Part shown: one piece after another, positions 1-13,989 of the stretch
Layout of the letters: every line of letters starts with the position of its first letter
How positions within the stretch are numbered: the first letter of the stretch is position 1
Assembly (NCBI RefSeq): GCF_024436055.1
Contig: NZ_JANFNH010000011.1
Span: 62,001-126,000, forward strand
DNA length: 64,000 nucleotides
Direction: 5' to 3'
DNA from: Streptantibioticus rubrisoli
Lineage (GTDB): Bacteria; Actinomycetota; Actinomycetes; Streptomycetales; Streptomycetaceae
The notes under the pieces: model-generated
Seen by the model: only the letters and a program-made list of their open reading frames with translations
What the model was told of the DNA's origin: nothing
Databases searched by the model: none
Position numbers and translations under genes: made by a program

Positions 1-1
1 T

Positions 2-178
2 CGCGAGCCATTGAGCGACGAACTTGCCCCCGAAGTGCCTGTACTGGCCCAGTCAATTGGGGAAGCCATGGCAGACAAGGGTCTTACGCCTGAGGAGATC
101 GCCTCAATCGCCGGGTTCTCGAACCCATCCAAGAACACGATCTTTGCTGCGCCAAAGCGCCGCCTCAGGGTGATCTAA
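2..178 (+). CDS. C-terminal end of an unidentified protein (cut by window edge)
   Basis: An open frame enters from the left edge and ends with TAA at 176-178, giving 58 residues. The tail contains a short helix-turn-helix-like stretch (GLTPEEIASIAGFSNPSKN), which suggests a DNA-binding or regulatory helix, but I do not recognise a family. It lies left of the tRNA-Ser-derived repeat, so it probably belongs to an older element abutting the AICE. The start lies outside the window, so size and function are unknown. Confidence 0.45.
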   Translation, partial: REPLSDELAPEVPVLAQSIGEAMADKGLTPEEIASIAGFSNPSKNTIFAAPKRRLRVI

Positions 179-254
179 AGCTGTTTCTGGGGTTTTCCTA
201 AAAATGGGGCTGTAACACTCTGGGTTGTTACAGCCCCATCGAGGAAGCAGGGAC

Positions 255-338
255 TGGGGGGCCTACAAGCAGCGCAACGCCGTGGAGCGGTGTACCAACC
301 GCCTGAAGCAGTGGCGCGGCATCGCGGGGTCGCTGTGA
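255..338 (+). pseudogene. IS5-family transposase C-terminal fragment
   Basis: The frame reads WGAYKQRNAVERCTNRLKQW, followed by RGIAGSL and a stop at 336-338. The block YKQRNxVERxxNRLKQWRGIA is the conserved end region of IS5-type transposases that are common in Streptomyces. Only about 27 residues remain and no 5' part is present upstream, so this is a dead insertion-sequence relic. It marks the left flank of the AICE as worn mobile DNA. Confidence 0.6.
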
Positions 339-340
339 AG

Positions 341-781
341 ATGGGCGTTCGCCTGATCAACGGTGTGAGCGCCTGCGACGATGTGAGCATGCCGACGCCT
401 GGAACGCCTCTCCCAGCTGCACTCATCCCCGACTGCACCAAACCGGAAGCTCACCACGCGGCCTATAGGAGCGCCAAGGCCAACGACGCGATCTTTGTGT
501 GCATCGCCCGCCAGGGCCAGCGCTGGAAGGTGGAGCTTGACGCTATGGCCAGTAGCGGGCCCACCATCCCGGACCAGGCAGTGACAGTCCTGCAGTCCGC
601 GGTTGAAGCATTGGTGTCTGCTGGCACAGCGACGCAAGCCAACATTGGGCCTGACTACATCTCCATGTGGGCGATCGAGAACGAGGAGAGGGCACGCGAG
701 ATCGCGGCTGCGTTCCATGCCGCTCTGCTCGGTCTCCAGCAGCTGTACACCGCGGTTCCGAGCCAGCGCGGGAGGGCCTAG
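341..781 (+). CDS. Hypothetical protein
   Basis: This 146-residue frame has normal Streptomyces codon bias from about residue 17 on. The second half looks like a folded alpha/beta protein (FVCIARQGQRWKVELDA, then long helices rich in Ala and Glu, such as ISMWAIENEERAREIAAAF). No family is recognised. ATG 341 was chosen because the frame upstream of it is the transposase relic; ATG 389 is an alternative. It stands alone with nothing supporting a partner. Confidence 0.4.
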   Translation: MGVRLINGVSACDDVSMPTPGTPLPAALIPDCTKPEAHHAAYRSAKANDAIFVCIARQGQRWKVELDAMASSGPTIPDQAVTVLQSAVEALVSAGTATQANIGPDYISMWAIENEERAREIAAAFHAALLGLQQLYTAVPSQRGRA

Positions 782-1434
782 CCTCCGAGTCCCCAGGCGC
801 TTCGTGGCGAGGCGGGCGGCGCGGCCAGCGGATCGCGGATTACGGACCGCACCCCGGCTCCTGCACCGCTGCCATTCGCGGCTTGAGGGTGGGGGCCTCT
901 CTGGGCCATCCACCCCTCCGGTCGATTCGCGGACGGATTTTCCATGACCAGGACGACACGTGGACGGGATCTGACTACCTCACTTCGCCCTCCGGTAAAT
1001 TGGCAGGTCAGACAGGGTGCAGAGGGGTGAAGATTCAAGCGCCGCCCCTGCGCACGCGCCAGTAAACCTTCGGCCCAGGTCTACTCTCCGCTGGAGTCGC
1101 TCAACGTCTCCCAGGTCTCGTTGTCCTCCCGAACCTGTGCAGCTGGCGCCACGCATGTGTGGTGGCCGACTAGCCTCTACGCGAGGACGAGCGCCAGCAC
1201 GTGACAGGGGCGACGCGGCGGAGTCGTTCTTGCTGGTTGCACGAAGGGTCTTCCAGTGCACCGGAGCGGATCGTAATTCTGCCCATGCATGGTGGCTGGT
1301 GCTCCCTCAGATGACTGCTGTCATGCCGGTTCAGCGGACCTCATGGGCCATCTGTGGGCCAGCAGGCGAGCTGAGAGCGACTAGGACGGCGTTCGAGCAG
1401 GTCACATGGGTTGTGGGCGCGGCTAGAGCGACGC
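782..1434. other. No gene seen
   Basis: Frames here are short, with poor third-position bias, and none resembles a known family. The stretch ends at the left att repeat. I searched it for the 5' half of a tRNA-Ser gene to match the repeat and found none. Confidence 0.5.
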
Positions 1435-1491
1435 TCTTGAAAACCGTCGTGGCAGCGATGTCACCGTGGGTTCAAATCCCACACTCTCCGC
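1435..1491 (+). repeat. attL: Left att site (3' part of tRNA-Ser(TGA))
   Basis: These 57 bases are identical to 12230-12286. They correspond to the anticodon loop (TTGAAAA), variable arm, T arm and acceptor 3' strand of a tRNA-Ser(UGA). The sequence upstream does not provide the matching 5' half (a GGAGAGTG-like acceptor strand is absent), so this is an att copy and not a working tRNA. A repeat pair of this kind is the usual footprint of AICE integration into the 3' end of a tRNA gene. Confidence 0.85.
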
Positions 1492-1507
1492 AGGTAAGGC
1501 GGTAGAT

Positions 1508-1542
1508 CCGGCCCCTGAGCAGCCAGTTTGCTCGGGGGCCGG
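1508..1542 (+). terminator. Hairpin after the left att copy
   Basis: A GC stem (CCGGCCCCTGAGCA paired with TGCTCGGGGGCCGG) encloses a small loop shortly after the tRNA fragment. There is no clear T tract, as is common in Streptomyces. It looks like an old tRNA terminator or an element-borne one. Confidence 0.5.
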
Positions 1543-1650
1543 TCCCGTGTGCGCTGTCCCTGACTGACCGTGATTCCCCGTCAGTTCCCGTCCGTTCGGG
1601 CACGGTGGGGGCACGCGCTCTGGCCTCCGGCAGGAACCACAGCGGTCCCC

Positions 1651-1801
1651 GCTGCCATCCCGTCTGCCGTCGACCCACACGCTAGTGGAGCGGGCTTGGC
1701 CCCTGGTGTCCAGGTGGAGCGCGCCACTGTACGAACGACCTGGACACCAGGGGCCAAGGCTGCTCGGCTCTGCCTGGGTCGATGGCAGGCGGGATGGCAG
1801 C
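1651..1801. repeat. Long imperfect inverted repeat (65/64-nt arms)
   Basis: The left arm 1651-1715 and right arm 1738-1801 are reverse complements with a few mismatches and one gap, separated by 22 nt. The inner 21 nt (cttggcccctggtgtccagg and one further base) and the outer 12 nt match perfectly. It lies inside the AICE just after the left att. Position and size suit a cis-acting site such as a transfer locus (clt), a single-strand origin, or a decayed IS with terminal repeats. None of these can be chosen from sequence alone. Confidence 0.7.
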
Positions 1802-2145
1802 CCCCTACGCACGCCACAGCGGACGTGCAGACGCACGTGGAGCCCCCGCCATCCCGGAGCCGGAGCGCCCCCGCCGGAGGCTTTCTTCTCATCTGCTGTC
1901 CACGTCGCTGGCCCGGCCTGGTCTTCGCCCCTTGTGGGCGCGGTCGGCGACGGCGCGCGGCCCCCGGCGGCGAAGACGAGGAGGGGAGCCGTGCGGCGGC
2001 GACGACCGGCGCCGCCGCGCTGTGCGCGGCACCTGAACCCCTGGTTCAACTGCTTGCAGTCCTCGGGAGGCCGGTCCACCGCGAGCGAAGCGAGCCTTGA
2101 TGAGGTAGAGAAACCTGTAACAGGTCCGCTCCGGGCTCCGGGCTC
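1802..2145. other. No gene seen between the inverted repeat and the HAD gene
   Basis: The stretch is GC-rich with no frame showing consistent coding bias. It probably holds cis sites of the AICE together with the inverted repeat, and a possible terminator for the leftward HAD gene (short GC inverted repeats near 2128-2160). Confidence 0.4.
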
Positions 2146-2844
2146 TTACCGGCTTCGCGGAGCCTGCATCGCGTCCGCGATGGTCTGCATGTGCTCCGTG
2201 ATTGCTTCGGCTCTGGCGTCGGCGAACGCACGTAGCTTGTGGGGCTTGTTGGCGTAGCCGATCGCGGTGCTTCCCGCCGCGTGGGCTGCCTCAATGTCCG
2301 TCACGGAGTCGCCGATGAGCACGCATTGGGTCGTGGCCGTGCCCAGTTGGTCAGCGGCGCGGATCAGCGAGTGCGGATCCGGCTTCATGAGGTCTGGGCG
2401 GTGTAGCGGGCGTCCCACGACTTCGTGGACGTGTTTGGTCAGCGAGTGCCGCGCTAGGAAGGCATGCACACAGTCCGAAGAGTTGTTACTGACCACGGCG
2501 ACGCGTCGCCCTGCTGTTTGAGCGGCTTCGAGCGCTGCAACAGCGCCGGGTGTGGGGTCGCCCGCCACTGCGACGGCTTCGATCTCGGCCGCGGTGAGAG
2601 CTTGTTCGATCTGCAAGCCCAGGGCCGTATCGGTCGCGTGGGTGAGACGTAGGACTTCGAGAGGATCGTCCGTGTCGGCGAGCTTTGCGCTTAGCACGGA
2701 ATCCGGCGGTGCCGCGAGCTGCGCCAATTGCCTGGCTACCTGCGGAGCAGGCAAGCCTGCGAACACGTCGCAGAGTGGACCGTCGAAGTCAAACAGGATG
2801 GCTGAGGCTTGGGCTAGTGTCCTGGCCACAGTGTCAGTGCCCAT
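2146..2844 (-). CDS. HAD-superfamily phosphatase (subfamily IA-like)
   Basis: This 232-residue protein has all four HAD motifs: the nucleophile motif ILFDFDG near the N terminus, VVSNNSS (motif II), the lysine in MKPDPHSL (motif III) and the acidic pair in LIGDSVTDIEAA (motif IV). HAD-IA enzymes cleave small phosphomonoesters; the substrate here is unknown. ATG 2844 starts just before the first HAD motif and overlaps the GntR stop by 11 bp, so the two are translationally coupled. The same GntR-HAD pair recurs in Streptomyces AICEs from general knowledge; its role in the element is not established. Confidence 0.85.
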   Translation of the reverse strand: MGTDTVARTLAQASAILFDFDGPLCDVFAGLPAPQVARQLAQLAAPPDSVLSAKLADTDDPLEVLRLTHATDTALGLQIEQALTAAEIEAVAVAGDPTPGAVAALEAAQTAGRRVAVVSNNSSDCVHAFLARHSLTKHVHEVVGRPLHRPDLMKPDPHSLIRAADQLGTATTQCVLIGDSVTDIEAAHAAGSTAIGYANKPHKLRAFADARAEAITEHMQTIADAMQAPRSR

Positions 2845-3700
2845 CAAGATCGATTTCCCTTGCGATGGTCTCCCACACGCTGTCAAACCACATGCGGGCC
2901 TGCTGAACTTGCTGGGCGCCGCCGGAGGAGTCGCCATCGTTGACCGAGTGGTGGAAGAGCACGGTGTCCCGGCCGACCAGATCGTAGATTTCGATGGTTT
3001 CGCCTTGAGCCACGACCTTGTTGGGCTTGATCGGGTAGTAGCCGAAGAACGTATCGGCCTTATTGATCACGTACAGCTTGAAGAACTGAGTACCGCTGTG
3101 AACGCGCACGTCAACTCGCGTTTCGGGCACCAAGCCGAGGTGGCCCAACTCGGCGACTGAGTCGCGGATGCTTCGCGTGTACCCAAGCATGATTTCGTGC
3201 ATGCGGCTACGTAGCCGCTCGTCGTCTGCGCAGTCCTCGCGGCGCACGGGCGCCGCCTGCGGCACAGACATGTCCGGTACCAGGATGCGCACGGTGATGC
3301 TCGACGGAGTGAGCCGTCCGATCCGGATCTTGTCCAACGGCTCTTGCAGTGCCCCGTGCAGCGTCTCACTGGAGAACCCTGCGAAGTCGATGGTGACTTC
3401 CTTGCTGGAGAACGCCTGTTCAACGTAGGGACGCAGCCCTGCGGGCCGTTCGGTCCGATTGCGGACGTAGACTCCGCTGCCCTTGCGGGAGACCACCAGG
3501 CCTTCGTCTTCCAGCTCCCGCAGTGCGCGTTGGATCGTCGCTCGTGCGAAGCCGTAGAGATCCGTCAGCTCTTTGTGGGACGGGAGTTTCTGCCCCGGCG
3601 CGAGCTTCCTTGTCCGGATCGCCGCGCCCAGACTGCTCGCCACCTGCTCATAAGGCGGCCGGTCGTCGTCGGGGTCCAGTGGGTCGGGGGCGAAGGTCAT
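2834..3700 (-). CDS. GntR-family transcriptional regulator of the AICE
   Basis: In this 288-residue protein, residues ~15-85 form a GntR winged helix (PPYEQVASSLGAAIRTRKL, LPSHKELTDLYGFARATIQR, GLVVSRKGSGVYV). A long C-terminal effector domain follows that I could not assign with confidence (UTRA-like at best). ATG 3700 was preferred to the upstream ATG because the winged helix then starts about 15 residues in. The gene is divergent from the transfer genes starting at 3834, so it very likely represses them and itself through sites in the 133-bp gap, like the KorSA regulator of pSAM2. Confidence 0.85.
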   Translation of the reverse strand: MTFAPDPLDPDDDRPPYEQVASSLGAAIRTRKLAPGQKLPSHKELTDLYGFARATIQRALRELEDEGLVVSRKGSGVYVRNRTERPAGLRPYVEQAFSSKEVTIDFAGFSSETLHGALQEPLDKIRIGRLTPSSITVRILVPDMSVPQAAPVRREDCADDERLRSRMHEIMLGYTRSIRDSVAELGHLGLVPETRVDVRVHSGTQFFKLYVINKADTFFGYYPIKPNKVVAQGETIEIYDLVGRDTVLFHHSVNDGDSSGGAQQVQQARMWFDSVWETIAREIDLDGH

Positions 3701-3751
3701 GCCTCGATCGTACGCGCGGACTCGCTCATCGGGACAGCCAGGACAGTCAGG

Positions 3752-3825
3752 TGTTGACATGACTAGCCAGGTTGCTTACGTTGGTCATGTACGGAGATGG
3801 CTAACCAGGCCAGTCACATGACAGG
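3752..3825. promoter_or_regulatory. Divergent promoter/operator region of the AICE
   Basis: Two near-identical 10-mers occur 28 bp apart in the same direction: actagccagg (3772-3781) and gctaaccagg (3800-3809). The flanking sequence repeats ttgacatgac and agtcacatgac. Repeats in the gap between a GntR gene and the first transfer gene suggest GntR operators. A TTGACA-like hexamer sits at 3754-3759. Binding is inferred, not shown. Confidence 0.5.
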
Positions 3826-3833
3826 AGAGAGCT

Positions 3834-4190
3834 ATGCCGTCCTTCAAGATCGACCTTTCGACCGCTGCGGTGTTCGTGGCGACCGCGCCCGCGCCGAAGC
3901 TGGTCAACCAGAAGACCGGTGAGCGGGCCGTGGACCGGGAGACCGGTGCGGGGCTGTCGACCGTGGGCCTTCTGGTCTCCGACGAGGGGGAGGGGAACCT
4001 GTACCAGGTGACCGTCCCGGAGACCGGGATCCCCGACGGGCTGGCCCCGGGTATGCCGGTCTCGGTGATCGGGCTGAAGGCTCGGGACTGGGAGAACGAG
4101 TTCAACGGCCAGAAGCGGCACGGGATCTCGTTCCGGGCCGTGGCTGTGACCTCGCTGGTCCCGGCTGTGGCTTCGAACGGTAAGGGCTGA
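3834..4190 (+). CDS. SCO3933-family small AICE protein
   Basis: This 118-residue soluble protein starts MPSFKIDLSTAAVFVA and carries the family's conserved pattern: a PAPKLVNQKTGERAVDRETG block, then LYQVTVPE and a final beta-rich part. Homologues are encoded immediately before the FtsK-type translocase in Streptomyces AICEs and are named SCO3933-family regulatory proteins; a role in element regulation is presumed. A GGAGAG ribosome site precedes the ATG. The next gene begins 4 bp after its stop. Confidence 0.8.
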   Translation: MPSFKIDLSTAAVFVATAPAPKLVNQKTGERAVDRETGAGLSTVGLLVSDEGEGNLYQVTVPETGIPDGLAPGMPVSVIGLKARDWENEFNGQKRHGISFRAVAVTSLVPAVASNGKG

Positions 4191-4194
4191 GCCG

Positions 4195-5550
4195 GTGTCC
4201 GCGCTGCTGGTGCTCGTGGCGCTGGGGTTAGGACTCGCCGGTGTGCTGGTGCTGCGGCATCAGCGTCCAGCCTGGTACTGGCTGGCCATCGGCGGCTGGT
4301 TGGCGGTGCTGCGGGTCAGCTTCGGCTACTCGTCGGTGATGGAAGCGTGCGGGTTGACGGTCCCGCCGTCGCGGATGCGGCTGATGCTGGCCCGCGCGGC
4401 GAATCGGGAAGTCCCGCCGAACCGTCCGCCGCGTCTGGTTCGGATGCGGATCACGCGTACCGGCCTGGTCATGCGGTTGAGGCTGTGCCCGGGGCAGGAT
4501 GCGTTCGACGTGGCCACGTCGACGGATCGGCTTCGGCATTCGTTCCTGATGCACGCGGTCACCTCCCGCGAGGTGAAGGCGGGTGTGGTGGAAGTGCGGA
4601 TGACCGGCTATGACGTGCTACGTCGGGTGCAGATACCCGCAAGGGCTGAGCGGTCGCTGTTGCGGGTGCCGGTCGCGCTGGTCGATGACGGCTCGGTCCA
4701 CTATCGGGACTTCCGCGAGGTGCCGCACCGGTTGGACTTGGGTGCCACGGTGTCGGGTAAGTCGGTGTCCTTGCGGAACTTGGTCACCGAACTCGCACCG
4801 CAACCGGTCGCCCTAGTGGGGATCGACTGTAAACAGGGTGTCGAGTTGGGGCCGTTGGCCCGCCGCCTGTCGGCCTTCGCCGACAATCCCGATAGCGCTG
4901 CCGATCTGCTGGAAGCGCTCGTTGAGCGGATGGCACAGATCTACCTGGTCATCCGTCGTGAGCAGCGGATCAGCGTGGACATCCCGGATGCGGAGATCAC
5001 CGCCGATATCTGGGGCCTTCCCGAAGCCATCCGCCCGACCCCCGTGGTGCTCATCGTTGATGAGGTCGCGGAACTGCTGCTGATCTCTAGCAACAGTGAG
5101 AAGAAGCGCCGCGAGCGCACCATGACCGCTCTGGTCCGGCTGGCCCAACTCGGTCGTGCAGCAGGCATCTACCTGGAGATCTGCGGGCAACGCTTCGGCG
5201 CCGAACTCGGTGAGGGCACAACGATGTTGCGTGCTCAGTTGACCGGCCGCATCTGCCATCGCGTCAACGACGAGGGCTCCGCGAAGATGGCCCTCGCCGA
5301 CATCTCCCCCGAAGCGGTCCTCGCCGCGACAACGATCGCGCCGAACCAACAGGGCGTAGCGGTCCTCGGCGACTCCTCCGGCGGCTGGGTCCGTGGCCGT
5401 GGCCCCTACGTCAGCCTGCGGCGCGCGGTCAATGTCTGCAACCGCTACGCCCACTTGACCCCTGACCTACCCGAACTCGCTCCATTCCGGCCCGCGTTGC
5501 CGGTGGCTGAGCCGGTCGACCTGGCCAAGCCCGTCCCGGCCTCCGCCTAG
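4195..5550 (+). CDS. FtsK/SpoIIIE-type DNA translocase (TraB/TraSA homologue)
   Basis: This 451-residue protein has two N-terminal membrane segments (residues ~1-20 and 25-45), then a RecA-fold motor. Walker A reads GATVSGKS (consensus fits, with Val where Gly is usual) and Walker B reads PVVLIVDEVAEL. A later LARLGRAAGIYLE-like segment and QLTGRICHRV also match TraB proteins. Such proteins move double-stranded plasmid or AICE DNA between mycelia in Streptomyces conjugation. It starts with GTG at 4195, 4 bp after the previous stop, so it is in one operon with the SCO3933-like gene. Confidence 0.9.
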   Translation: MSALLVLVALGLGLAGVLVLRHQRPAWYWLAIGGWLAVLRVSFGYSSVMEACGLTVPPSRMRLMLARAANREVPPNRPPRLVRMRITRTGLVMRLRLCPGQDAFDVATSTDRLRHSFLMHAVTSREVKAGVVEVRMTGYDVLRRVQIPARAERSLLRVPVALVDDGSVHYRDFREVPHRLDLGATVSGKSVSLRNLVTELAPQPVALVGIDCKQGVELGPLARRLSAFADNPDSAADLLEALVERMAQIYLVIRREQRISVDIPDAEITADIWGLPEAIRPTPVVLIVDEVAELLLISSNSEKKRRERTMTALVRLAQLGRAAGIYLEICGQRFGAELGEGTTMLRAQLTGRICHRVNDEGSAKMALADISPEAVLAATTIAPNQQGVAVLGDSSGGWVRGRGPYVSLRRAVNVCNRYAHLTPDLPELAPFRPALPVAEPVDLAKPVPASA

Positions 5551-5638
5551 CCCTTCCCTGCTCCATCGGTCGGCGTGACCGCCTTCACGCCAAGTCCCTA
5601 CCCGATCCATGCCCGAAACCAAGAAGGAGAGAGATCAC

Positions 5639-5848
5639 ATGTCGAACCGTGACCGTCGCACCAGCGCCGCGGCGGAGGACCGGCGGCGAACCGGCACTCT
5701 GGTCATGCACGCTATGCAGTACCTCAACGACCCTTCCGGCAAGCCGGATGGGAAGTTCGCGGACGTGATCATCACCGGCTGCACCGCGTCCAAGGGCAAC
5801 AAGAACTACCCGCCCAAGGGCCACGGCTACCCCCGCAAGGACCGGTGA
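5639..5848 (+). CDS. Small hypothetical AICE protein
   Basis: This 69-residue protein is basic and polar with no membrane segment. ATG 5639 was chosen over ATG 5609 because AAGGAGAGA lies 7 bp before it. The frame overlaps the next gene's GTG by 4 bp (GTGA). It resembles the small unnamed proteins that follow the translocase gene in Streptomyces AICEs. No function is known. Confidence 0.65.
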   Translation: MSNRDRRTSAAAEDRRRTGTLVMHAMQYLNDPSGKPDGKFADVIITGCTASKGNKNYPPKGHGYPRKDR

Positions 5849-6048
5849 TCGCCGTGTGCCTGCGCTGCCAGGACGGCATCGTGACCGGCGAACTGATCCA
5901 CGACCTCATCGCCTACGAGGAACGGCCGGACGCCGACAGCGAGTTCGTCCAGCTCCTGCGGGGCGCCTTCCGCGCGGAAGCCTTCGCCCGGATGACCGAC
6001 TCCTACCCGCCGATCGGCCACACCTTCCCCCGCTACGCGGGCGAGTGA
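5845..6048 (+). CDS. Small hypothetical AICE protein with a CxxC
   Basis: This 67-residue protein starts with GTG inside the previous stop (4-bp overlap). The N terminus has MIAVCLRCQDG, a single CxxC that could be half of a metal site, followed by a helical acidic part. It is part of the run of tiny, tightly packed genes after traB. The function is unknown. Confidence 0.6.
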   Translation: MIAVCLRCQDGIVTGELIHDLIAYEERPDADSEFVQLLRGAFRAEAFARMTDSYPPIGHTFPRYAGE

Positions 6049-6053
6049 CCACC

Positions 6054-6242
6054 ATGGCCACCACTCGACAGGCCACCCGCAGCAAGCCCGCCGAACCGCC
6101 CAAGTGCCCGGTCTGTAAGGGCACCGGCGAGACCACCATCACCGTCCGCGTCGGTCGCCGTCGCCGTGACACCGGCGCACAGCAACTGGGGCTCTGTCTG
6201 ACCTGCCTCGGGTCTGGCGAAGCCCCCGCAAGGGAGGAGTAG
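6054..6242 (+). CDS. Small zinc-finger-like AICE protein
   Basis: This 62-residue protein has CPVCKGTGETT and LCLTCLGSGEA, two CxxCxGxG-type units like the DnaJ central zinc repeats. They probably bind one zinc. It starts at ATG 6054, 5 bp after the previous stop. It shares this knuckle with the gene at 7972. The role in transfer is unknown. Confidence 0.65.
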   Translation: MATTRQATRSKPAEPPKCPVCKGTGETTITVRVGRRRRDTGAQQLGLCLTCLGSGEAPAREE

Positions 6243-6246
6243 CCCA

Positions 6247-6411
6247 GTGTTCGAGTTCCGCGTGATCTGTGACCAGGACGACGTGCCGTTCATCGTCCGT
6301 GACCTGTGCCGGACCTTCGTGGTCCGCAGCGTGAGGCGGTTCCCGGCCCGCACCGAAGGGCGCGAACGCCTCTACGTCGAAGCCGAACGCCAAGCCGAGC
6401 CCACCTTGTAG
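6247..6411 (+). CDS. Short AICE protein (54 aa)
   Basis: The frame GTG 6247 to TAG 6411 encodes MFEFRVICDQDDVPFIVRD and continues with an Arg-rich segment. It starts 4 bp after the previous gene and keeps strong third-position GC. It is similar in size and place to unnamed mobile-element proteins in this cluster, and it is too short for family assignment. Confidence 0.55.
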   Translation: MFEFRVICDQDDVPFIVRDLCRTFVVRSVRRFPARTEGRERLYVEAERQAEPTL

Positions 6412-6492
6412 CCCCTGCCCCCCGGGGCCGGACGGACCGACTCCCTGTCCGGCCCCGGACACCGCTTCCACTCCTGGAAGGGAGGATCCGAA

Positions 6493-7149
6493 ATGCGTCG
6501 ACTGCCCCGGCTGGATGCGGTCTTGGTGCAAGCGGTGATCGCCGCCGCGCTGTCCTTCGCCCACCTGCACGACATCGCTGAAGCAGCCGGGCAAGACGGC
6601 TGGAAGGCGTGGGCCTACCCGATCAGCGTCGACCTGCTGCTGGTCGCCGCCTGGCGCAAGCTGCGGGCCAAAACCGCGCCCCGGCTGGCCTGGTGCTGGT
6701 TCACCATCGCCCTCACCGCTTCCCTGGGCGCCAACGTCGCCACCGCCGGATTCCTCGATCTGCACCACGCCCCGGCCTGGCTGCGCATGGTCGTGGCCGG
6801 ATGGCCCGCCGCCGCCTTCCTCGGCGGCACCCTCCTCGCCCACACCACCAAAACCGAACCGGTCCCCGGCCCGGTCGAACCGGCGCCCGAAGCATCCCCT
6901 GCCGAACCACCCGCGACCGAAGCAGAGTTGCCCGCGCTCGTGTCGGCCGAACCGGACCCCGCCCCGGCGCCTGCCCTCCCGGCCTCGCCGGTGGCTGCCC
7001 CGGCGATCCCCGCCGCTCTGGTCGCACACGCCCGCAAGATCGCCGACACGCACCGCGCCACCACCGGACACCCGATCGACCCCGAAACCCTGCGCGCCCG
7101 GCTCGGCGTCCCCGCCGACCTGGCCAACGCCGTTGCCGCCGCCCTGTAA
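6493..7149 (+). CDS. DUF2637 membrane protein (spread-type)
   Basis: This 218-residue protein has an N-terminal part (~1-115) with several hydrophobic helices and the family signature AAALSFAHLHDIAEAAG and WAYPISVDLLLVAAWR. A Pro/Ala/Glu-rich linker (~120-175) follows, then a helical tail resembling a small DNA-binding domain (PIDPETLRARLGVPADLANA). DUF2637 proteins are encoded in the spread (spd) region of actinomycete conjugative plasmids and AICEs; I infer a membrane role in intra-mycelial spread. A GGGAGG ribosome site precedes ATG 6493. Confidence 0.8.
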   Translation: MRRLPRLDAVLVQAVIAAALSFAHLHDIAEAAGQDGWKAWAYPISVDLLLVAAWRKLRAKTAPRLAWCWFTIALTASLGANVATAGFLDLHHAPAWLRMVVAGWPAAAFLGGTLLAHTTKTEPVPGPVEPAPEASPAEPPATEAELPALVSAEPDPAPAPALPASPVAAPAIPAALVAHARKIADTHRATTGHPIDPETLRARLGVPADLANAVAAAL

Positions 7150-7173
7150 CCCACCCGCGAAAGGACATCTGTC

Positions 7174-7362
7174 ATGGCTGCTGCTCGCTTTTGGGACCTG
7201 TTCCGCATCGGCCCCGTAGAGATCGCCACCCACCGCGACCGGTACGGCCGCACCGCACACGTCGCCGCCTGCACCGCGCCCGGCTGCGACTGGTCCGCCG
7301 ACTACCTCAACCGCTTTGCCGCCGAACTCGCCGCCCGTACCCACCGCTGCGCCCCCCGCTGA
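7174..7362 (+). CDS. Mobile-element transfer protein (small)
   Basis: This 62-residue protein reads MAAARFWDLFRIGPVEIATH, with two Cys in CTAPGCDW and a final THRC. Proteins of this size and motif occur next to DUF2637 genes in AICEs and are listed as mobile element transfer proteins. The Cys/His set may bind a metal. AAAGGAC lies before the ATG. Confidence 0.7.
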   Translation: MAAARFWDLFRIGPVEIATHRDRYGRTAHVAACTAPGCDWSADYLNRFAAELAARTHRCAPR

Positions 7363-7377
7363 CCGAGGATCCCCGTC

Positions 7378-7566
7378 ATGACTGTGCCGTTGTGGTTCGT
7401 CGTCCTGGTCGTCAGTTGGCTCGCCGTTCGTCTGGTCCGCCCGCCGTGGTGGGTCGTCGCTCTGCTGCTCCTTGGCGGCTTCCTCCTCGCACACAGCTTC
7501 CTCGCCCCCGCGATCGAGTCTGGCACTCACACCGGCGTCGGCATCGTCAACGGCACCACCAAATAG
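7378..7566 (+). CDS. Small membrane protein, SpdD-like
   Basis: This 62-residue protein has two adjacent hydrophobic helices (VPLWFVVLVVSWLAVRLV and WVVALLLLGGFLLAHSFLA). It sits in the spread-gene run, and size and topology match SpdD-type plasmid spread proteins. Assignment by context is stronger than by sequence. Confidence 0.65.
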   Translation: MTVPLWFVVLVVSWLAVRLVRPPWWVVALLLLGGFLLAHSFLAPAIESGTHTGVGIVNGTTK

Positions 7567-7588
7567 TCCCGTTGAAAGGAGGAACCTC

Positions 7589-7876
7589 ATGGACGGGAAC
7601 CTAATCGCCGCCACCATCCTCTTCGGCCCCGGCGCGGTCGCCCTGCCCACCATCGCGGTTCTGTGGCACCGCACCAACAAGCAGCACGAGGTCGAGCGCG
7701 CGATCTTCGCCGAACACTGCGTCCGCACCACGCCGGGTGCACCGACCCCGCCGCCCGCCCGCGAACCGGCCCCCGTGATCACCACCCCGGCACCCGTGCT
7801 GGCCTTGGTCCCCGCCCCCGTGGCGGAGCCGTCCGCGCCCGTGATCGACCTGACCACGCGCAAACGCATCGCCTAA
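7589..7876 (+). CDS. Single-pass membrane AICE protein
   Basis: This 95-residue protein has one N-terminal hydrophobic helix (LIAATILFGPGAVALPTIAV), a short basic segment, and a Pro/Ala-rich tail. AAAGGAGG precedes ATG 7589. The layout (a short anchor plus a low-complexity cytoplasmic tail) fits a spread-locus protein, but no family is recognised. Confidence 0.6.
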   Translation: MDGNLIAATILFGPGAVALPTIAVLWHRTNKQHEVERAIFAEHCVRTTPGAPTPPPAREPAPVITTPAPVLALVPAPVAEPSAPVIDLTTRKRIA

Positions 7877-7971
7877 CCGGCCCCCGGGGCGGCCTCGATA
7901 CCGCCAAGCATCCGCCGCCCCGGGCGCCTTCACCCCTTCCAGATCCACCGGACCCGAAAGGAACCCTCATC

Positions 7972-8160
7972 ATGCCCGAGATCACCCCTGCCGCGATTCG
8001 CCGGTGCGGGTACTGCGACGGCTTCCCCGCCGTGGCCATCACCACCGGCCTACGCACCGCCGACGGTGACCGCGAGATCGTCACCGTGACCTGCCCCGCC
8101 TGCAAGGGCACCGGTACCGCCCCGTCCGGCCGCCCCCGCCTCGCGACGGCCGGAAGGTGA
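7972..8160 (+). CDS. Small zinc-knuckle AICE protein
   Basis: This 62-residue protein pairs RCGYCDGFPAV with CPACKGTGTAP, four cysteines in two CxxC units. It is a second, diverged version of the 6054 gene. It may be a nucleic-acid or protein adaptor; nothing else supports a function. Confidence 0.65.
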   Translation: MPEITPAAIRRCGYCDGFPAVAITTGLRTADGDREIVTVTCPACKGTGTAPSGRPRLATAGR

Positions 8161-8165
8161 TCGCA

Positions 8166-8336
8166 GTGAAGCTCTTGGACTGGCGCGACCGCAAGCACTT
8201 CGACCCCACCGGCGACAAGCCTTGCGTGATCTGCACCAAGCCCACCCCGCTGCGCTCGGACAACGGCAAGCCCGTGCACAAGGTGTGCGCGGAGGACTGG
8301 CTGGACACCCACCCGCGGAAGGTGGAACAGCGATGA
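8166..8336 (+). CDS. Short AICE protein (56 aa) with Cys pairs
   Basis: The frame GTG 8166 to TGA 8336 encodes MKLLDWRDRKHFDPTGDKPC, then VICTKPTPLR and KVCAEDW. Three Cys plus His suggest a zinc site. Its stop overlaps the ATG of the methyltransferase (ATGA), so the two are translationally coupled. Function is unknown. Confidence 0.55.
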   Translation: MKLLDWRDRKHFDPTGDKPCVICTKPTPLRSDNGKPVHKVCAEDWLDTHPRKVEQR

Positions 8337-9409
8337 CCAACTCCCCGGCCTGCCGCGTGCTCGACCTGTTCGCTGGCCCCGGTGGATGGTCTCAAGGACT
8401 GCGCCGCCTGGGCATAGCCGAAGTAGGCATGGAACTCGATGCTGTAGCCTGCGCCACCCGCACCGCCGCCGGACACACCACCATCCGCGCTGACGTGGCC
8501 ACCTACCCCACCGCTCACCTGCGCGGGAAGATCTCGGGGCTGATCGCCTCCCCACCCTGCCAGACCTTCTCCGCCGCCGGACTGCGCGCTGGCGAGGATG
8601 ACACAGACCTGTGTCACCAAGCCCTCGCAGACCTGGCCGCCGGGCGCGACACCCGCGCCGCTTTGCGCACCAGGTGCGTCGATCCTCGTTCGCTCCTGGT
8701 CGTGGAGCCTTTGCGCTACGCCCTCGACCTGCGACCCGACTGGATCGCACTGGAGGAAGTCCCCTTCGTCCAACCGCTGTTCGCCCATACTGCCGTGCAC
8801 TTGCGCGCTCTCGGGTACTCCACCTGGGTCGGCGTCCTGAATGCCGCCGACTACGGAGTTCCCCAAACCCGCCGCCGTTGCCTGCTCCTGGCATCCCGCA
8901 CCGACCCGGTCACCCCGCCGCATGCCACCCACGCACGAACGGCCGAGCCTGAAACGCTGTTCGGCCCCGGTCGCCTGCCGTGGGTCACCATGGCCGAAGC
9001 CATCGGCTGCCCCACCGGCGAAGTCGTGACTCGTGGAGACCGCCACACCGGCGGCACCCGCTTCTCCACCACCGGCCCCACCTGGACTATCACCGGCTGC
9101 GCTCGCGGGTGGACCCTGCGGGTCGGCAACCGCCAACGGGCAACCCGCCGCGGCATCGACGCACCCGCGCCCACCCTGCTGTTTGGCCACGCCCTCAACG
9201 ACGTGTCCTGGTACGACGATCAGGGCACTGCGGTACGCCGCCTCTCGGTCGCCGAAGCTTCTGTTCTCCAGGGCTTCTCCGTCAGCTACCCCTGGCGCGG
9301 GTCCCGCACCAAGCAGTTCGAACAGATCGGCAACGCCGTCCCCCCACCCCTGGCCACCGCGGCCCTGTCCGCGGTACTGCCCACCACCGCCTTGGGGGTG
9401 GCTGCGTGA
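8333..9409 (+). CDS. Cytosine-5 DNA methyltransferase
   Basis: This 358-residue protein has motif I DLFAGPGGWSQGL at residues 11-23 (SAM binding), motif IV PPCQTFS with the catalytic Cys at residue 76, an EEVP version of motif VI (ENV is usual), QTRRR of motif VIII, and motif X EQIGNAVPPPLA near the end. It transfers methyl groups to C5 of cytosine in double-stranded DNA; the target sequence cannot be read. No restriction endonuclease gene is adjacent, so it looks like an orphan enzyme of the AICE, possibly shielding it from host restriction. It overlaps the rep gene by 4 bp. Confidence 0.92.
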   Translation: MTNSPACRVLDLFAGPGGWSQGLRRLGIAEVGMELDAVACATRTAAGHTTIRADVATYPTAHLRGKISGLIASPPCQTFSAAGLRAGEDDTDLCHQALADLAAGRDTRAALRTRCVDPRSLLVVEPLRYALDLRPDWIALEEVPFVQPLFAHTAVHLRALGYSTWVGVLNAADYGVPQTRRRCLLLASRTDPVTPPHATHARTAEPETLFGPGRLPWVTMAEAIGCPTGEVVTRGDRHTGGTRFSTTGPTWTITGCARGWTLRVGNRQRATRRGIDAPAPTLLFGHALNDVSWYDDQGTAVRRLSVAEASVLQGFSVSYPWRGSRTKQFEQIGNAVPPPLATAALSAVLPTTALGVAA

Positions 9410-10800
9410 CCGACGCCGCCACCCTGGCGGGCCTGGACCCGACCACCCTGCAAGATCTCTTGCGGGTGGCCGGGCAACCGGGCTTCGACCGCTGGCAAGA
9501 GCAGATCCGCCGCACCGGCGGATGCGCCGACCCGATCCACCTGGTCGGCTACACCAAGACCCTGGACCCGGCCACCGGCACGGTCCTGCACACCTACTCC
9601 ACCGACGCCGAGCCGGGCGGGCGTCTGCGGGTCGCCTGCGGCAACCGCCGTGCCTCGCGCTGCCCGTCGTGCGCGTGGACCTACGCCGGGGATGCCTATC
9701 ACCTCATCCGCGGGGGCCTGGTCGGCGACGCTGGCATGGGCGTCCCGGATCGGGTCCGCGAGCACCCGGGCGTCTTCGCCACCCTGACCGCGCCTTCGTT
9801 CGGCCCGGTCCACAACCGTTCCGACTCGGGCCGTTGCCGCTGCGGGACCGCCCACCCGCAGGGCTCTGCCGAGTTGGGCACCGCGTTGGATCCAGAGCGG
9901 TACGACTACGCGGGCGCGGTGCTGTGGAACAACCACGCCTCCGACCTGTGGCGCTACTTCACCATCTACCTGCGTCGTGAACTGGCCGTGCGCTCGGGCC
10001 TGACACAAGCTCGGTTCCGTGAGGTGTGCCGGGTCTCCTTCGGGAAGGTGGCGGAGTTCCAAAAGCGCGGGGCGGTGCACTTCCATGCCGTCATCCGGCT
10101 CGATGGTCCCGAAGGTCCGCAGGATGCCCCGCCCCACTGGGCCAGCACCGACCTGTTGGAGGATGCGATTCGGGCTGCCGCCTATCGCGTGTCGGTGCCC
10201 GTGCCCGCTAGCGGTGACTACCCTGCCCGCGTCTTGCACTGGGGCGGTCAGGTGGACGTTCAGCCCATCGCCAGTACCGCGCTGGATGGTCGGGAGGTAA
10301 CGGAACAGGCCGTGGCCTCCTACGTGGCCAAGTACGCCACCAAAGCGGCCGAGACGACCGGCACCGTAGCCCGCCGCATCGGAGAACTGGCAGAGCTGGA
10401 CAAGCTCCCCGACCTGCCCGAGCACACCCGGCGTCTGATCCAAGCGTGCTGGGAGCTGGATGAGGACTACCCGGAGCGCAAGCTGTGGGCCTGGGCACAC
10501 ATGCTCGGCTTCCGCGGCCACTTCCTCACCAAATCCCGCCGTTACTCCTCCACCTTCGGCGAACGCCGACAGGTACGCGCTGACTACCGGGCCGCACAGG
10601 AACGTCAACGCCTCGGCCTGCCTGCTCTCGACGAAAACCCGGAAGGCACCACGCTGGTCCTTGCCCACTGGACCTACGCCGGACATGGACACACCCCGGG
10701 CGAATCCTGGCTCGCCGCCACCATCGCCCGCGACATCCAAGCCAACCGTGAGATCGCCCGCGAAGCCCTGGCGGACCTGGATGACGAGGGGGAGTGGTGA
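9406..10800 (+). CDS. RepSA-type replication initiator
   Basis: This 464-residue protein has a Cys-rich N-terminal zone (CGNRRASRCPSCAW, CRCGTAHP), then the rolling-circle HUH motif HFHAVIRLDG (His225 and His227). The motif with the catalytic Tyr reads YVAKYATK (Tyr306 or Tyr310). Length and motif order match RepSA of pSAM2-type AICEs, which nicks the double-strand origin. GTG 9406 sits in the methyltransferase stop. The double-strand origin in such elements often lies in or near rep; I could not locate it. Confidence 0.88.
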   Translation: MTDAATLAGLDPTTLQDLLRVAGQPGFDRWQEQIRRTGGCADPIHLVGYTKTLDPATGTVLHTYSTDAEPGGRLRVACGNRRASRCPSCAWTYAGDAYHLIRGGLVGDAGMGVPDRVREHPGVFATLTAPSFGPVHNRSDSGRCRCGTAHPQGSAELGTALDPERYDYAGAVLWNNHASDLWRYFTIYLRRELAVRSGLTQARFREVCRVSFGKVAEFQKRGAVHFHAVIRLDGPEGPQDAPPHWASTDLLEDAIRAAAYRVSVPVPASGDYPARVLHWGGQVDVQPIASTALDGREVTEQAVASYVAKYATKAAETTGTVARRIGELAELDKLPDLPEHTRRLIQACWELDEDYPERKLWAWAHMLGFRGHFLTKSRRYSSTFGERRQVRADYRAAQERQRLGLPALDENPEGTTLVLAHWTYAGHGHTPGESWLAATIARDIQANREIAREALADLDDEGEW

Positions 10801-10802
10801 CC

Positions 10803-11012
10803 ATGGCTGACCGACTCCTGGAGGTTACGGAGGTGGCCGAACGGCTGGGCACAGGCGTGCGCTTCCCTCGGAGGCTGATCGAGGAACGCCGGATTGCCTT
10901 CGTCAAGGTGGGCCGACATGTTCGCATCCGCGAAAGCGTTGTTGAGGCGTACATCGAAGCCAACACCGTATGCCCTGTCACCACGGTCCAGCGCCTGAAG
11001 GCGGTGGCCTGA
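10803..11012 (+). CDS. xis: Excisionase (Xis)
   Basis: This 69-residue winged-helix protein of the MerR/excisionase type reads LLEVTEVAERLGTGVRFPRR, then FVKVGRHVRIRESVVEAYIE. It binds att-site arms and steers the integrase toward excision. GTG 10797 is an alternative start. The stop overlaps the integrase ATG by one base (TGATG), the usual xis-int arrangement in AICEs. Confidence 0.88.
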   Translation: MADRLLEVTEVAERLGTGVRFPRRLIEERRIAFVKVGRHVRIRESVVEAYIEANTVCPVTTVQRLKAVA

Positions 11013-12190
11013 TGGCTGGCAAGCGCAAGTCCCGCCGCTCGTTCGGCCGCGTCCGCAAGCTCCCGTCCGGCCGCTTCCAAGCCAGGTACCCGGGGCCTGA
11101 TGGTGTGCTCCGACCAGCGGACCGAACGTTCGCAACATCAACGGACGCCGACCGGTGGCTCATGCGGAAGCGCATCGAGATCGAAGAGGGCCGCTGGCTT
11201 GATCCGGCTGAGGGGCAAACGACGGTACGGGACTGGGCCGCCCGCTGGCTCGCTGCCGTCTCGCCTCAGCTCAAGCACAAGACCCAAGCGTCGTACCGGT
11301 CCCTGATCAACTCGCTGATCAATCCGGCGATGGGAGATCGTGAGCTGTCGAGTCTCCGCCCGATCACGATCGCTGAGTGGGTCGGCGGGATGAAGACCAA
11401 GGGCCTCAGCGCTTCGCGCATCCGGCAGGCGTATCGCGTCCTGTCACAGATCATGCGGTCGGCTGTCGACAACGACATGATCTCGCAGACGCCTTGCCGG
11501 GGCGTGAAGCTGCCTCGAATGCCGCAGACCGAGCCGCACATCCTCACCCCGCTCGAAGCGTCCCGGATCGTGCGGAGCGCCGAGAGGCCGCATGACCTGT
11601 TGATCGCAGTCCTGGCGTACGCGGGCCTGCGGGTCGGCGAGGCGTTCGCCTTGCGCCGTGCGGACATCGACGTCTCCGGCGGCTTCGTCCTCGTGGACGA
11701 GAACCTTGCCGAAGCGAACGGCGCCTTGGTCTTCGACACACCCAAGTCACACCAGAAGAGGATCGTTCGCGTTGGCCCGTCTCTCGCGAAGCGGCTCGGG
11801 AAGCATCTGGAGACCCTGCCGGGTGGGGATGACGCGCTCCTGTTCACGACGCCCGGAGGGAAGCCGCTGCGCTACAACCAGTGGCGCAAGGCGTACTTCG
11901 ACCCCGCCGTATCGGCGGCCGGGCTGACGGACGTGACTCCGCACGATCTCCGCGCCTCGCACGGGACATGGGTCGCTGACCGGTATGGCGTGATGACCGC
12001 TGCTCACCGGCTTGGCCATGCGAACGCGAGCGTCACGACTCGGCACTACGCCCGGCCGGTGGCTGGTCGTGATGACCAGGTGGCCGAGGCGGCTGACTCC
12101 TGGCTCAGCGGACACGACCATGAGCCTGGGGCACGTAGCGGGCATGACGACGATGACGATGGCTCCTCCGGGGTGCTTGCGCCCCTCTGA
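11012..12190 (+). CDS. int: Tyrosine recombinase / integrase
   Basis: This 392-residue site-specific recombinase has an N-terminal arm-binding domain, a SAM-like core-binding domain (~75-160) and a catalytic domain. All key residues are present: Arg207 in AGLRVGEAF, His311 and Arg314 in PHDLRASHG, His336 in RLGHANAS, and Tyr346 in TRHYARP. It ends 40 bp before the right att copy, as expected for an enzyme acting there. It probably recombines within the 57-bp tRNA-Ser segment. It is intact, so the element may still be mobile. Confidence 0.93.
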   Translation: MAGKRKSRRSFGRVRKLPSGRFQARYPGPDGVLRPADRTFATSTDADRWLMRKRIEIEEGRWLDPAEGQTTVRDWAARWLAAVSPQLKHKTQASYRSLINSLINPAMGDRELSSLRPITIAEWVGGMKTKGLSASRIRQAYRVLSQIMRSAVDNDMISQTPCRGVKLPRMPQTEPHILTPLEASRIVRSAERPHDLLIAVLAYAGLRVGEAFALRRADIDVSGGFVLVDENLAEANGALVFDTPKSHQKRIVRVGPSLAKRLGKHLETLPGGDDALLFTTPGGKPLRYNQWRKAYFDPAVSAAGLTDVTPHDLRASHGTWVADRYGVMTAAHRLGHANASVTTRHYARPVAGRDDQVAEAADSWLSGHDHEPGARSGHDDDDDGSSGVLAPL

Positions 12191-12229
12191 CCTGCGGTGG
12201 AGCGCTCGGCCCGCGTGATCCTCAAAAGG

Positions 12230-12286
12230 TCTTGAAAACCGTCGTGGCAGCGATGTCACCGTGGGTTCAAATCCCACACTCTCCGC
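12230..12286 (+). repeat. attR: Right att site (3' part of tRNA-Ser(TGA))
   Basis: This is the perfect 57-bp copy of 1435-1491. The bases just upstream (aaaagg) do not form a proper anticodon stem, and the 5' half belongs to the integrase flank, so no functional tRNA is made here. It marks the boundary with the chromosome. Confidence 0.88.
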
Positions 12287-12305
12287 GCAGCTAGAAAAGG
12301 CGCGG

Positions 12306-12344
12306 GTCGGAGCGGGTTCCGGGTCATCCGGAGCCCGCTCCGAC
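12306..12344 (+). terminator. Hairpin terminator after the tRNA repeat
   Basis: A perfect 11-bp stem (GTCGGAGCGGG with CCCGCTCCGAC) encloses a short loop 20 bp after the tRNA-Ser fragment. It is the probable original terminator of the tRNA-Ser gene now displaced by the AICE. Confidence 0.65.
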
Positions 12345-12536
12345 CGCGTTGCCTGTCTCACCCCGTGCCCCTGCATCCCATTGTTGACCAGCGTGTGCGG
12401 CCAACCTGCTGCCAGGGTCGTATGACTTGCCGTTGTCCATCCAACCGGTGCCCACTTTCGGGCGGCTCTTGTTCAGGATGAGTTCGCCCCAGCCGGTCGC
12501 GGGCAACTCGCAGGCCCGCTCGGTGAGTTGCGCCAC
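12324..12536 (-). CDS. Doubtful small ORF
   Basis: A 70-residue frame from GTG 12536 has coding-like third positions in its first 40 codons (MAQLTERACELPATGWGELI), then runs into the terminator hairpin. No relative is recognised. It may be the relic of a gene cut by an old integration event. Confidence 0.2.
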   Translation of the reverse strand: MAQLTERACELPATGWGELILNKSRPKVGTGWMDNGKSYDPGSRLAAHAGQQWDAGARGETGNAVGAGSG

Positions 12537-12638
12537 TCCCCCTGCCGGGCGCCCCGCGCAGGCGAGGTGATCCGTACGTCGACGACCCGCAGCCCGGAGC
12601 CCGCGACGCCGTTCAGGCGCGTATGGCCAGCACGGTAG

Positions 12639-13154
12639 TCAGCTCCCGGTCGGTAGTACCGAGGAGTGGTGGTTGATGATGAGCCACCGGCCGCCACGAA
12701 GCGCGTAGACGAAGGTGTAGCGGGCGTCGACCTTGGACTTGGTGCCGTTCGCCTTGGTGAGCGTGAACTGGTAGAGGCCGGTGTCGACGGCCGCGGTGGG
12801 GCCGAGGATGTTGATAACCCGCCTCTGGATCCTGCCGACAGGCTTGCTTTCGAGGAAATGCCTGAAGTAGTCGACGATCTCGGCTCGGTTGGTGCGGATT
12901 CGGTCCGAGACTGTTGGCAGCAGCACGGCGTCGGGCGCGTAGAGGTCCGCGACGCGGCTCGGGTCACCGGTGGCGAGTGCCGCGTTCCACTGGTCGAACA
13001 ACGCCGCGATCTGTCCGCGTGAGGGCAGTTGGGTTGTGGCCGTCTGTGTGGCGCGGGGCTGGGCACGGATCGCGGTCGCGCAGGTGGGTCCCGCACCGGT
13101 GAGGAGTACGGCGGTGGCGGCAGCAGCGACCCCGGTGGTGTACATGCGCCTCAT
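12639..13154 (-). CDS. Secreted NTF2-like (CaMKII association / SgcJ-type) protein
   Basis: This 171-residue protein has a signal peptide at residues ~1-30 (MRRMYTTGVAAAATAVLLTG). It is followed by a cone-shaped NTF2-like domain: IAALFDQWNAALATGDPSRV, YAPDAVLLPTVSD, YFRHFLESKP, and a final YTFVYALRGGRWLIINHHSS. This matches the CaMKII association-domain/SgcJ-EcaC group (SnoaL-like fold); many have no proven activity. ATG 13154 follows GGGAGGT, so the upstream frame is not used. It stands alone. Confidence 0.75.
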   Translation of the reverse strand: MRRMYTTGVAAAATAVLLTGAGPTCATAIRAQPRATQTATTQLPSRGQIAALFDQWNAALATGDPSRVADLYAPDAVLLPTVSDRIRTNRAEIVDYFRHFLESKPVGRIQRRVINILGPTAAVDTGLYQFTLTKANGTKSKVDARYTFVYALRGGRWLIINHHSSVLPTGS

Positions 13155-13535
13155 GACGTACCTCCCGCGTTCTCCGGGTTTGCGCGTCTGTAACACCAGC
13201 CTCTCCCATCACGCACGATTCAGCACGCCCAGAGCTGCGAAGGCACGTATGACGGGCTCAGAGCCGGGGCCAGCCGATGGCGGCCCTTCGCTCCAGGTGG
13301 GGCTCCGCGTCTTCCCCCGGCGGTATGGAGCAGGCGGCCGTCCTCGGCGCCGGGTCGTGTGTCGAACCCGATGTTCATCGAGGTTTATCGAGAGGCCGTC
13401 ACGCGTGCGAGGTAAATGGAGCGCTCGGCGCGGTAGTTGGGCGTGCCCATGGGCAAGTCTGGATTCGCGGCGCCGCAGAGCTGGCGGAGCGGTTGGCCGG
13501 CCGTCCGCCCACACCGGTTCCTGGAGGGAATTGAA
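13155..13535. other. Intergenic, no gene seen
   Basis: This 381-bp gap lies between divergent genes. It should hold the promoters of the NTF2-like gene and of the small secreted protein. Frames lack coding bias and no clear operator was seen. Confidence 0.4.
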
Positions 13536-13793
13536 ATGAGCAAGATCCGTACCGCCCGTGTCCTGGCCGCGTTCGCCGCGCTGCCGCTCACCGCGGTTCT
13601 GTTCGCGGGCACCGCGTCGGCGGACAACGGTTCCTTCGCGAACGACCACTCGCAGTCGAGCGTCAACAGTACGGGGCAGGTGTCCTCGGGTGCGGGCGCC
13701 ACCAACCAGAGCAACACCGCCAGTGCGAACGGCTCCGGTGACACCCGTATCGAGCAGCGGAATGTGCGGGTGGTCTTCTGCAGGGGCTGGTGA
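13536..13793 (+). CDS. Small secreted protein
   Basis: This 85-residue protein starts at ATG 13536 after GGAGGGA. It has a Sec signal peptide (residues 1-29, ending GTASA), and a mature part of about 55 residues rich in Asn, Ser and Gly (SSVNSTGQVSSGAGATNQSN), ending in a short Arg/Cys tail. Composition resembles small extracytoplasmic Streptomyces proteins distantly reminiscent of chaplins, but no chaplin motif is present. Function is unknown. Confidence 0.7.
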   Translation: MSKIRTARVLAAFAALPLTAVLFAGTASADNGSFANDHSQSSVNSTGQVSSGAGATNQSNTASANGSGDTRIEQRNVRVVFCRGW

Positions 13794-13869
13794 ACACGGC
13801 GCGAGGGCCCGGCGCGCTGCCATAGGGGGCGTCGACGCGGGTTCCGCGCGGCAGGTGGGTGAGGTGGCT

Positions 13870-13907
13870 GTGCGACGGCGTGATCAATGCCGTCGCACGG
13901 CTTTTTT
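13870..13907 (+). terminator. Strong rho-independent terminator
   Basis: A 10-bp perfect stem (GTGCGACGGC / GCCGTCGCAC) is followed by GG and C then a T tract (cttttttgg). It ends the transcript of the small secreted protein. Confidence 0.85.
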
Positions 13908-13937
13908 GGTTCTTTGGCGCTGTTCCAGACGTCCCGC

Positions 13938-13960
13938 GTTGTCCACAGGGTGTGGACAAC
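13938..13960. promoter_or_regulatory. Pair of head-to-head DnaA-box-like sequences
   Basis: The palindrome gttgtccaca-ggg-tgtggacaac contains TTGTCCACA (13939-13947) and its reverse complement (13951-13959). Each matches the DnaA box consensus favoured in Streptomyces. It sits between a terminator and the ChsH2-like gene, away from any origin gene. It may titrate DnaA, regulate the promoter, or be an unrelated operator. Confidence 0.55.
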
Positions 13961-13989
13961 GCTCCCGCGTCTTGACGCCCTGGGATTAA

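Follow-up and report, generated by a model that had tools for sequence, protein, structure and literature searches.

Among the AICEs, mobile elements that are widespread in antibiotic-producing actinobacteria, many replicate by rolling circle. The single-strand (minus) origins (sso) of Gram-positive rolling-circle plasmids belong to several unrelated types. According to the cited passages of PMC4595007, an sso usually lies 5' of the double-strand origin (dso), because it is thereby exposed last. The origin of pC194 and pUB110 terminates in CTTGATA, as stated in the portion of PMC5031790 used here. RepSA is a rolling-circle initiator; the relevant section of PMC3218068 cites te Poele et al. for assigning pSAM2 to the pC194 family on the basis of motifs and the nick site, and also likens the RepSA motifs to the phiX174 group, a likeness that weakens the pC194 analogy. 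We analyzed a 64,000-nucleotide stretch of the Streptantibioticus rubrisoli genome (the window), in which a RepSA-type AICE carries a hairpin, here called type A, at positions 1651–1801 of the + strand. The inverted repeat, its fold, and covariation and a strand test on 91 copies indicate that this hairpin is probably the sso of the element, used in its rolling-circle replication.

The AICE is delimited by a 57-bp exact direct repeat, comprising attL (1435–1491, +), the 3' part of a tRNA gene that is Ser-like by eye, and attR (12230–12286, +). The genes identified include a GntR-family regulator (2834–3760, −; Pfam PF00392), a TraB/FtsK-like transfer protein (4195–5550, +; PF01580), a C-5 cytosine DNA methylase between the transfer genes and rep (8327–9409; PF00145), the RepSA-family rolling-circle replication initiator (9406–10800, +; PF20199, 495.5 bits) and a tyrosine integrase (10970–12190, +; PF00589). 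The type A element starts 154 nt to the inside of the attL repeat. Of 63 loci that have both rep and int, 41 yielded an att repeat of at least 30 nt, 135–3,860 nt from the element; the stretch searched began 4 kb 5' of the hairpin and ended just within it, which presets the order att–hairpin, and in some loci without an att repeat the right end may fall outside the fetched DNA. A third att copy is located 18 kb 5' of attL (G000:C7:45179–45227). This arrangement points to a tandem pair of elements at a single tRNA site, with positions 1–1434 of the window belonging to the upstream one.

The repeat search recovered the structure given in the preliminary description, with arms of 65 and 64 nt (1651–1715 and 1738–1801) separated by a 22-nt spacer. 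The hairpin consists of an outer stem of 27 nt (1651–1677/1775–1801) and an inner stem of 28 nt (1688–1715/1738–1765), each 93% complementary, joined by a less regular junction of about 10 and 9 nt and closed by an apical loop (1716–1737). Among the 13 inverted repeats of at least 24 nt in the window (arms no more than 200 nt apart), only its two stems reach 93%, the others being 70%–82% complementary. Folded as single-stranded DNA, positions 1640–1810 reach −76.1 kcal/mol; 200 dinucleotide shuffles average −38.2 (sd 3.2; z −11.7), and none of them folded equally well. The repeat was thus correctly located, but the conserved unit is larger than first described: the hairpin is the core of a non-coding type A element of about 235 bp (1647–1881), followed by a second conserved block that contains a 27-nt site (1912–2122). 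Column conservation defines a 3' tail of the element (CCATCCCGGAGCC...GCCCCCGCCGGAGGC; 1849–1881, +). The sequence CCATCCCG of the left arm (1649–1662) recurs in the conserved tail (1843–1856). The right arm could therefore pair with either copy, and a pairing switch between the left arm and the tail is possible.

The element recurs in many genomes of the family. Matches with E ≤ 0.001, including short ones near that threshold, occur in at least 157 of 297 genomes of the family, and the genome of the window itself holds a second full copy. A covariance model built from 30 copies found the element in at least 155 of 293 genomes in a sample of the order. In the phylum sample it matched 14 of 396; eight of the latter belong to the same family, two to the same class and four lie beyond it, the best of these six having an E value of 3.5e-9. 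Among plasmid records, 21 match positions 1500–2160, and 18 of the 20 listed overlap the element, while phage records gave no match to it. The Micromonospora AICE pMR2 carries the element just beyond the integrase on the circle. Conservation in related AICEs, the absence of which had been named as a refutation of the initial idea, is therefore the observed outcome. The comparison of arms and spacer proposed at the same time showed the highest mean column conservation across 91 copies in the apical loop (97%), against 94% and 89% for the two sides of the outer stem and 80% and 84% for those of the inner stem. The junctions are conserved at 78% and 88%, the linker 3' of the hairpin at 58%, and the tail at 83%.

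The fold is under selection, on the + strand, which is the sense strand of rep and int. In an alignment of 91 distinct copies of the element, 36 of the 64 consensus pairs, 61 of which are in the hairpin, change on both sides with pairing kept. Paired cells amount to 98.9%, compared with 92.2% in column shuffles and 29.5%–43.3% in slid controls, and double changes occupy 320 cells, where shuffles give a mean of 71 and slid controls 15–38. The imperfect cells in the 61 hairpin pairs comprise 585 G·T in 32 pair columns and 11 A·C in 8 pair columns; since cells share ancestry, the column counts are the safer figure (32 versus 8, sign test p 0.0002). Under drift on duplex DNA, G·T and A·C would arise alike, and the excess of G·T therefore identifies the + strand as the folding strand. 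Damage to exposed cytosines could add to this excess, which would likewise mark + as the single strand. Model R1 was derived from the + strand, so its higher score on that strand is not independent evidence.

The association of the element with replication genes was analyzed in 50 genomes picked from the family matches for few contigs, plus the genome of the window (103 contigs), which were searched for RepSA, the element, Prim-Pol and RepAM. With 45 of the 50 genomes having an element match and five lacking one by this choice, the share of genomes has no meaning here. The copies counted were 75 forward element matches with E ≤ 1e-25 among the matches listed. Self-matches of the palindrome in reverse were omitted, as were forward matches that were weaker or short, including a full-length one at 67% (G065). 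Two full-length divergent relatives (67% identity; G065:C1:4989709–4989958 and G065:C1:4498725–4498974) stand outside the counts. The RepSA set comprised 135 entries among the matches listed, second pieces of broken genes having been dropped. Within these lists, a RepSA match lies no more than 12 kb from 45 of the 75 copies, where 0.6 would be expected; each of the 45 has the same strand as RepSA and is 5' of rep, at a distance of 1.5–9.5 kb. The other 30 have no RepSA within 12 kb. Counted from the side of the initiator, again among the matches listed, 41 of the 112 full-length RepSA genes are closer than any other RepSA to one of these copies, and 71 have no type A within 12 kb. In the genome of the window, seven of nine RepSA genes among the matches listed lack both type A and the 27-nt site (three mismatches allowed). 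None of the 75 copies is within 15 kb of RepAM, for which the best 45 of 55 matches were used, the ten omitted being weaker or broken. Some Prim-Pol genes have a RepSA gene or a hairpin copy no more than about 15 kb away. A second set consisted of the best 80 of 501 RepSA loci, which are close to the RepSA of the window; a full-length type A was present in 40 of these 80, in every case upstream and on the + strand.

The conserved block 3' of the element (1912–2122, +), which follows both type A and the type B hairpins described below, is a candidate dso region. It contains an inverted repeat of 31 nt (1912–1942/1956–1986, 74%) and ends in a 27-nt site conserved in RepSA loci, CTTGATGAGGTAGAGAAACCTGTAACA (2096–2122, +), the proposed nick site of RepSA. 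The cut is presumably made after CTTG within 2096–2122, by analogy with pC194. With up to six substitutions allowed, 66 of the 80 RepSA loci (best 80 of 501) carry the site on the + strand, and no locus carries it on the − strand. In 12 of the 14 loci without it, the DNA begins within 3.3 kb 5' of rep; the other two (L084 and L114) have good RepSA genes. In the set of 50 genomes, the site (no more than three mismatches) occurs 34 times in 22 genomes, the reversed control giving no occurrence. Of these 34 sites, 28 follow a type A copy among the matches listed, 127–637 nt from the end of the element match and always on the same strand (28/28). Conversely, 27 of the 75 copies among the matches listed have the site within 1.5 kb, the difference in number being due to one G289 copy with two sites. 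The core CTTGAn(3-5)GTAG(A/G)GAA is present no more than 900 nt 3' of the element in 35 of the 40 element-centred type A loci and in 36 of the 40 centred on RepSA (the latter from the best 80 of 501), with no occurrence on the opposite strand or in the 900 nt on the 5' side of the same loci; in the window, 2096–2122 is its only match. The hairpin is present but the core absent in pMR2 (L007), whose RepSA is divergent (330 versus 495 bits), and in a Nonomuraea copy (L011), so the pairing of hairpin and dso is not universal. By analogy, the CTTGA site at 2096 is likely the dso nick site. A nick at this position would make + the displaced strand, in agreement with the strand test.

In the RepSA loci lacking a full type A, other hairpins take its place. 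Type B, which has no significant sequence likeness to type A (E 0.34 with the B profile), is present in 17 of these 40 loci (best 80 of 501), on the + strand and 5' of rep in all 17; examples are L076:4253–4454, L057:7890–8086 and L119:7480–7663, with 14 more loci. In type B, 27 of 54 pairs show two or more Watson-Crick types, as raw counts without a shuffle control, and there are 102 G·T and 3 A·C cells over 19 sequences. The 27-nt site follows 114–668 nt after type B in 16 of the 17 loci. The type B set contains 20 loci and was assembled partly by BLAST with type B itself. L056, L134 and L166 hold both types, type B being 5' of the left att repeat in L056 and L166. A third hairpin type was found 5' of rep in L048 (7546–7753) and L122 (3086–3246) only. 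The rest of the 40 loci comprise two with a broken type A (L050 and L059), 15 cut by a contig end before the region, and L054, L084, L104 and L113, which cover the region and represent the only four of the 80 RepSA loci (best 80 of 501) with no recognised hairpin there. If minus origins were interchangeable, unrelated hairpins would be expected to replace one another in front of a single conserved origin site, as they do here.

Some copies are found apart from RepSA. In 11 of 40 element-centred loci, no RepSA was present in the fetched 20 kb; for one of these 11, L139, a RepSA is 12.5 kb away. Eight of the 11 loci without RepSA (L129, L130, L135, L142, L147, L155, L159 and L162) keep the core 128–171 nt 3' of the element. 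The eight copies without RepSA in the alignment, some of them under another locus number, have between none and two broken pairs of 61. Some of these loci retain pieces of an integrase or a GntR/UTRA regulator. A Pfam scan of ten proteins beside copies without rep identified GntR/UTRA regulators in two loci and one transposase-type integrase, the others being host-like or unassigned. These copies may be decaying elements or satellites replicated in trans. The copies on linear or large plasmids (L008, L009, L010 and L012) have one to seven broken pairs and no dso core nearby, and no match to RepSA, an integrase or TraB was found near them.

The preliminary description had offered three guesses, of which the sso is supported, clt is unlikely and a vanished insertion sequence (IS) is rejected. 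Support for the sso comes from the strand-specific covarying fold, the association with RepSA in one orientation, the place 5' of a pC194-like site, and the replacement of type A by type B. Several features expected of an sso can be recognized at this locus. The replicon is of the rolling-circle kind, with PF20199 in the window and RepSA near 45 of the 75 copies among the matches listed; a strong structure would be formed in the displaced strand, provided that the CTTGA site is the nick; the orientation is fixed relative to both RepSA (45/45) and the 27-nt site (28/28), given the presumed direction of synthesis; and the distance of 127–637 nt agrees with a place close 5' of the dso, which is usual, though not universal. 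After excision and circularisation, the CTTGA site near 2096 would be where RepSA nicks the + strand, which would then be displaced by leading-strand synthesis. Lying about 300 nt 5' of the nick, the hairpin would be among the last parts displaced and, once single-stranded, could fold into a 61-pair stem. Host enzymes would then recognise it, probably via the very conserved apical loop, and the lagging strand would be primed at the hairpin, making the circle double-stranded again.

The hairpin could instead be a part of the dso, a structure for RepSA binding or termination and not a priming site. It would be suitably placed, 127–637 nt 5' of the CTTGA site on the same strand, and it goes with RepSA and not with RepAM. 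However, hairpins of two unrelated types stand before this one site, which is hard to reconcile with a structure bound specifically by Rep, and pMR2 with its divergent RepSA retains type A without the CTTGA core, making this role unlikely. A structured non-coding RNA, or a 3' element of a rep-xis-int transcript read through attP in the circle, would also fold on the + strand with G-U pairs and yield the same strand signal, and the hairpin is co-directional with int on the circle. Against a transcript, Rfam gave no matches above the gathering score in positions 1–14000 of the window, no T-run was found 3' of the hairpin in the window, a replication-type site follows the hairpin in most loci, and an unrelated hairpin replaces type A in other RepSA loci; we regard this explanation as distinctly improbable.

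A clt function, that is, a site recognised by TraB for double-stranded transfer, has very little probability. TraB moves double-stranded DNA, whereas the fold belongs to one strand, and the hairpin is kept in loci without traB, both of which argue against clt. No traB match was obtained by tblastn or an iterated profile, which does detect the traB of pMR2, in 13 of the 40 type A RepSA loci (best 80 of 501), where only 1.2–2.9 kb separates the element from rep; 7 of 29 element-centred loci with rep likewise lack a traB match. The element is thus not confined to loci with traB. Among repeats of 8 nt or more, the sizes searched for, none in positions 1495–2150 has over two copies. The position at the left end would suit a clt, the cited part of PMC9513070 states that no clt motif has been described for pSAM2, and the pIJ101 clt includes an imperfect inverted repeat besides 5-bp direct repeats, according to the excerpt from PMC3583192. 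A MITE, or the joined ends of a vanished IS, would explain a long inverted repeat and the presence of copies on linear plasmids (L008–L010 and L012). Such a remnant was rejected as practically impossible, since place and orientation are fixed, all 45 copies near RepSA lying on one side of it and in one orientation, and the loop is conserved more than the arms (97% versus 80%–94%), with compensatory changes in the latter.

If the sso assignment is true, it provides a 151-nt minus origin and a 27-nt dso site that can be tested, a model with matches in roughly half of the order sample, and an example of minus origins being replaced as modules; it could also aid the construction of stable AICE-based vectors. 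A wider and rather doubtful possibility is that types A and B are unrelated interchangeable minus origins that carry an undescribed host priming signal, the apical loop, and are swapped as modules before one conserved RepSA dso. In the same scheme, the modules of hairpin plus dso without rep would be satellites, replicated and mobilised in trans by the RepSA of other elements.

The literature searched, as far as the consulted sections of its sources extend, names no sequence as an AICE single-strand origin; the 1993–94 papers on pSAM2 replication, outside the scope of this search, may hold an earlier description. The clt loci of pJV1, pIJ101, pSVH1 and pWTY27 are, like type A, cis-acting and non-coding parts of conjugative Streptomyces elements, but in the cited passages of PMC3583192 and PMC4170104 they contain short direct repeats that TraB recognises, accompanied in some cases by inverted repeats. 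On the side of the dso, the CTTGAT core of the pC194/pUB110 origin (PMC5031790, in the part cited) is common to the 27-nt site, whereas the remainder of the site was seen here only with RepSA elements, and RepSA belongs to PF20199, unlike the Rep of pC194, which the cited portion of PMC5714925 assigns to Rep_1. The sso types of Gram-positive plasmids and sso1 of ICEBs1 resemble the proposed type A origin in being orientation-bound, active only when single-stranded, and usually located 5' of the dso (PMC4595007, cited passages); they function in a different host, and the likeness drawn here is one of description. The sso1 of ICEBs1, unlike type A, lies downstream of its own origin according to the same passages. 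Closest in kind is sti/sso of pIJ101, likewise a non-coding minus origin of a Streptomyces rolling-circle replicon (PMC4170104, in the section used); in the same source, priming in pSN22 is reported to be independent of RNA polymerase. As for sti/sso of pIJ101, it has no sequence likeness to the type A profile (best E 0.92), and a relation in sequence to a characterised sso, which is not required of a minus origin, was thus not seen in this sole comparison. We therefore call type A a putative minus-origin family without likeness to pIJ101, the only Streptomyces sso plasmid compared.
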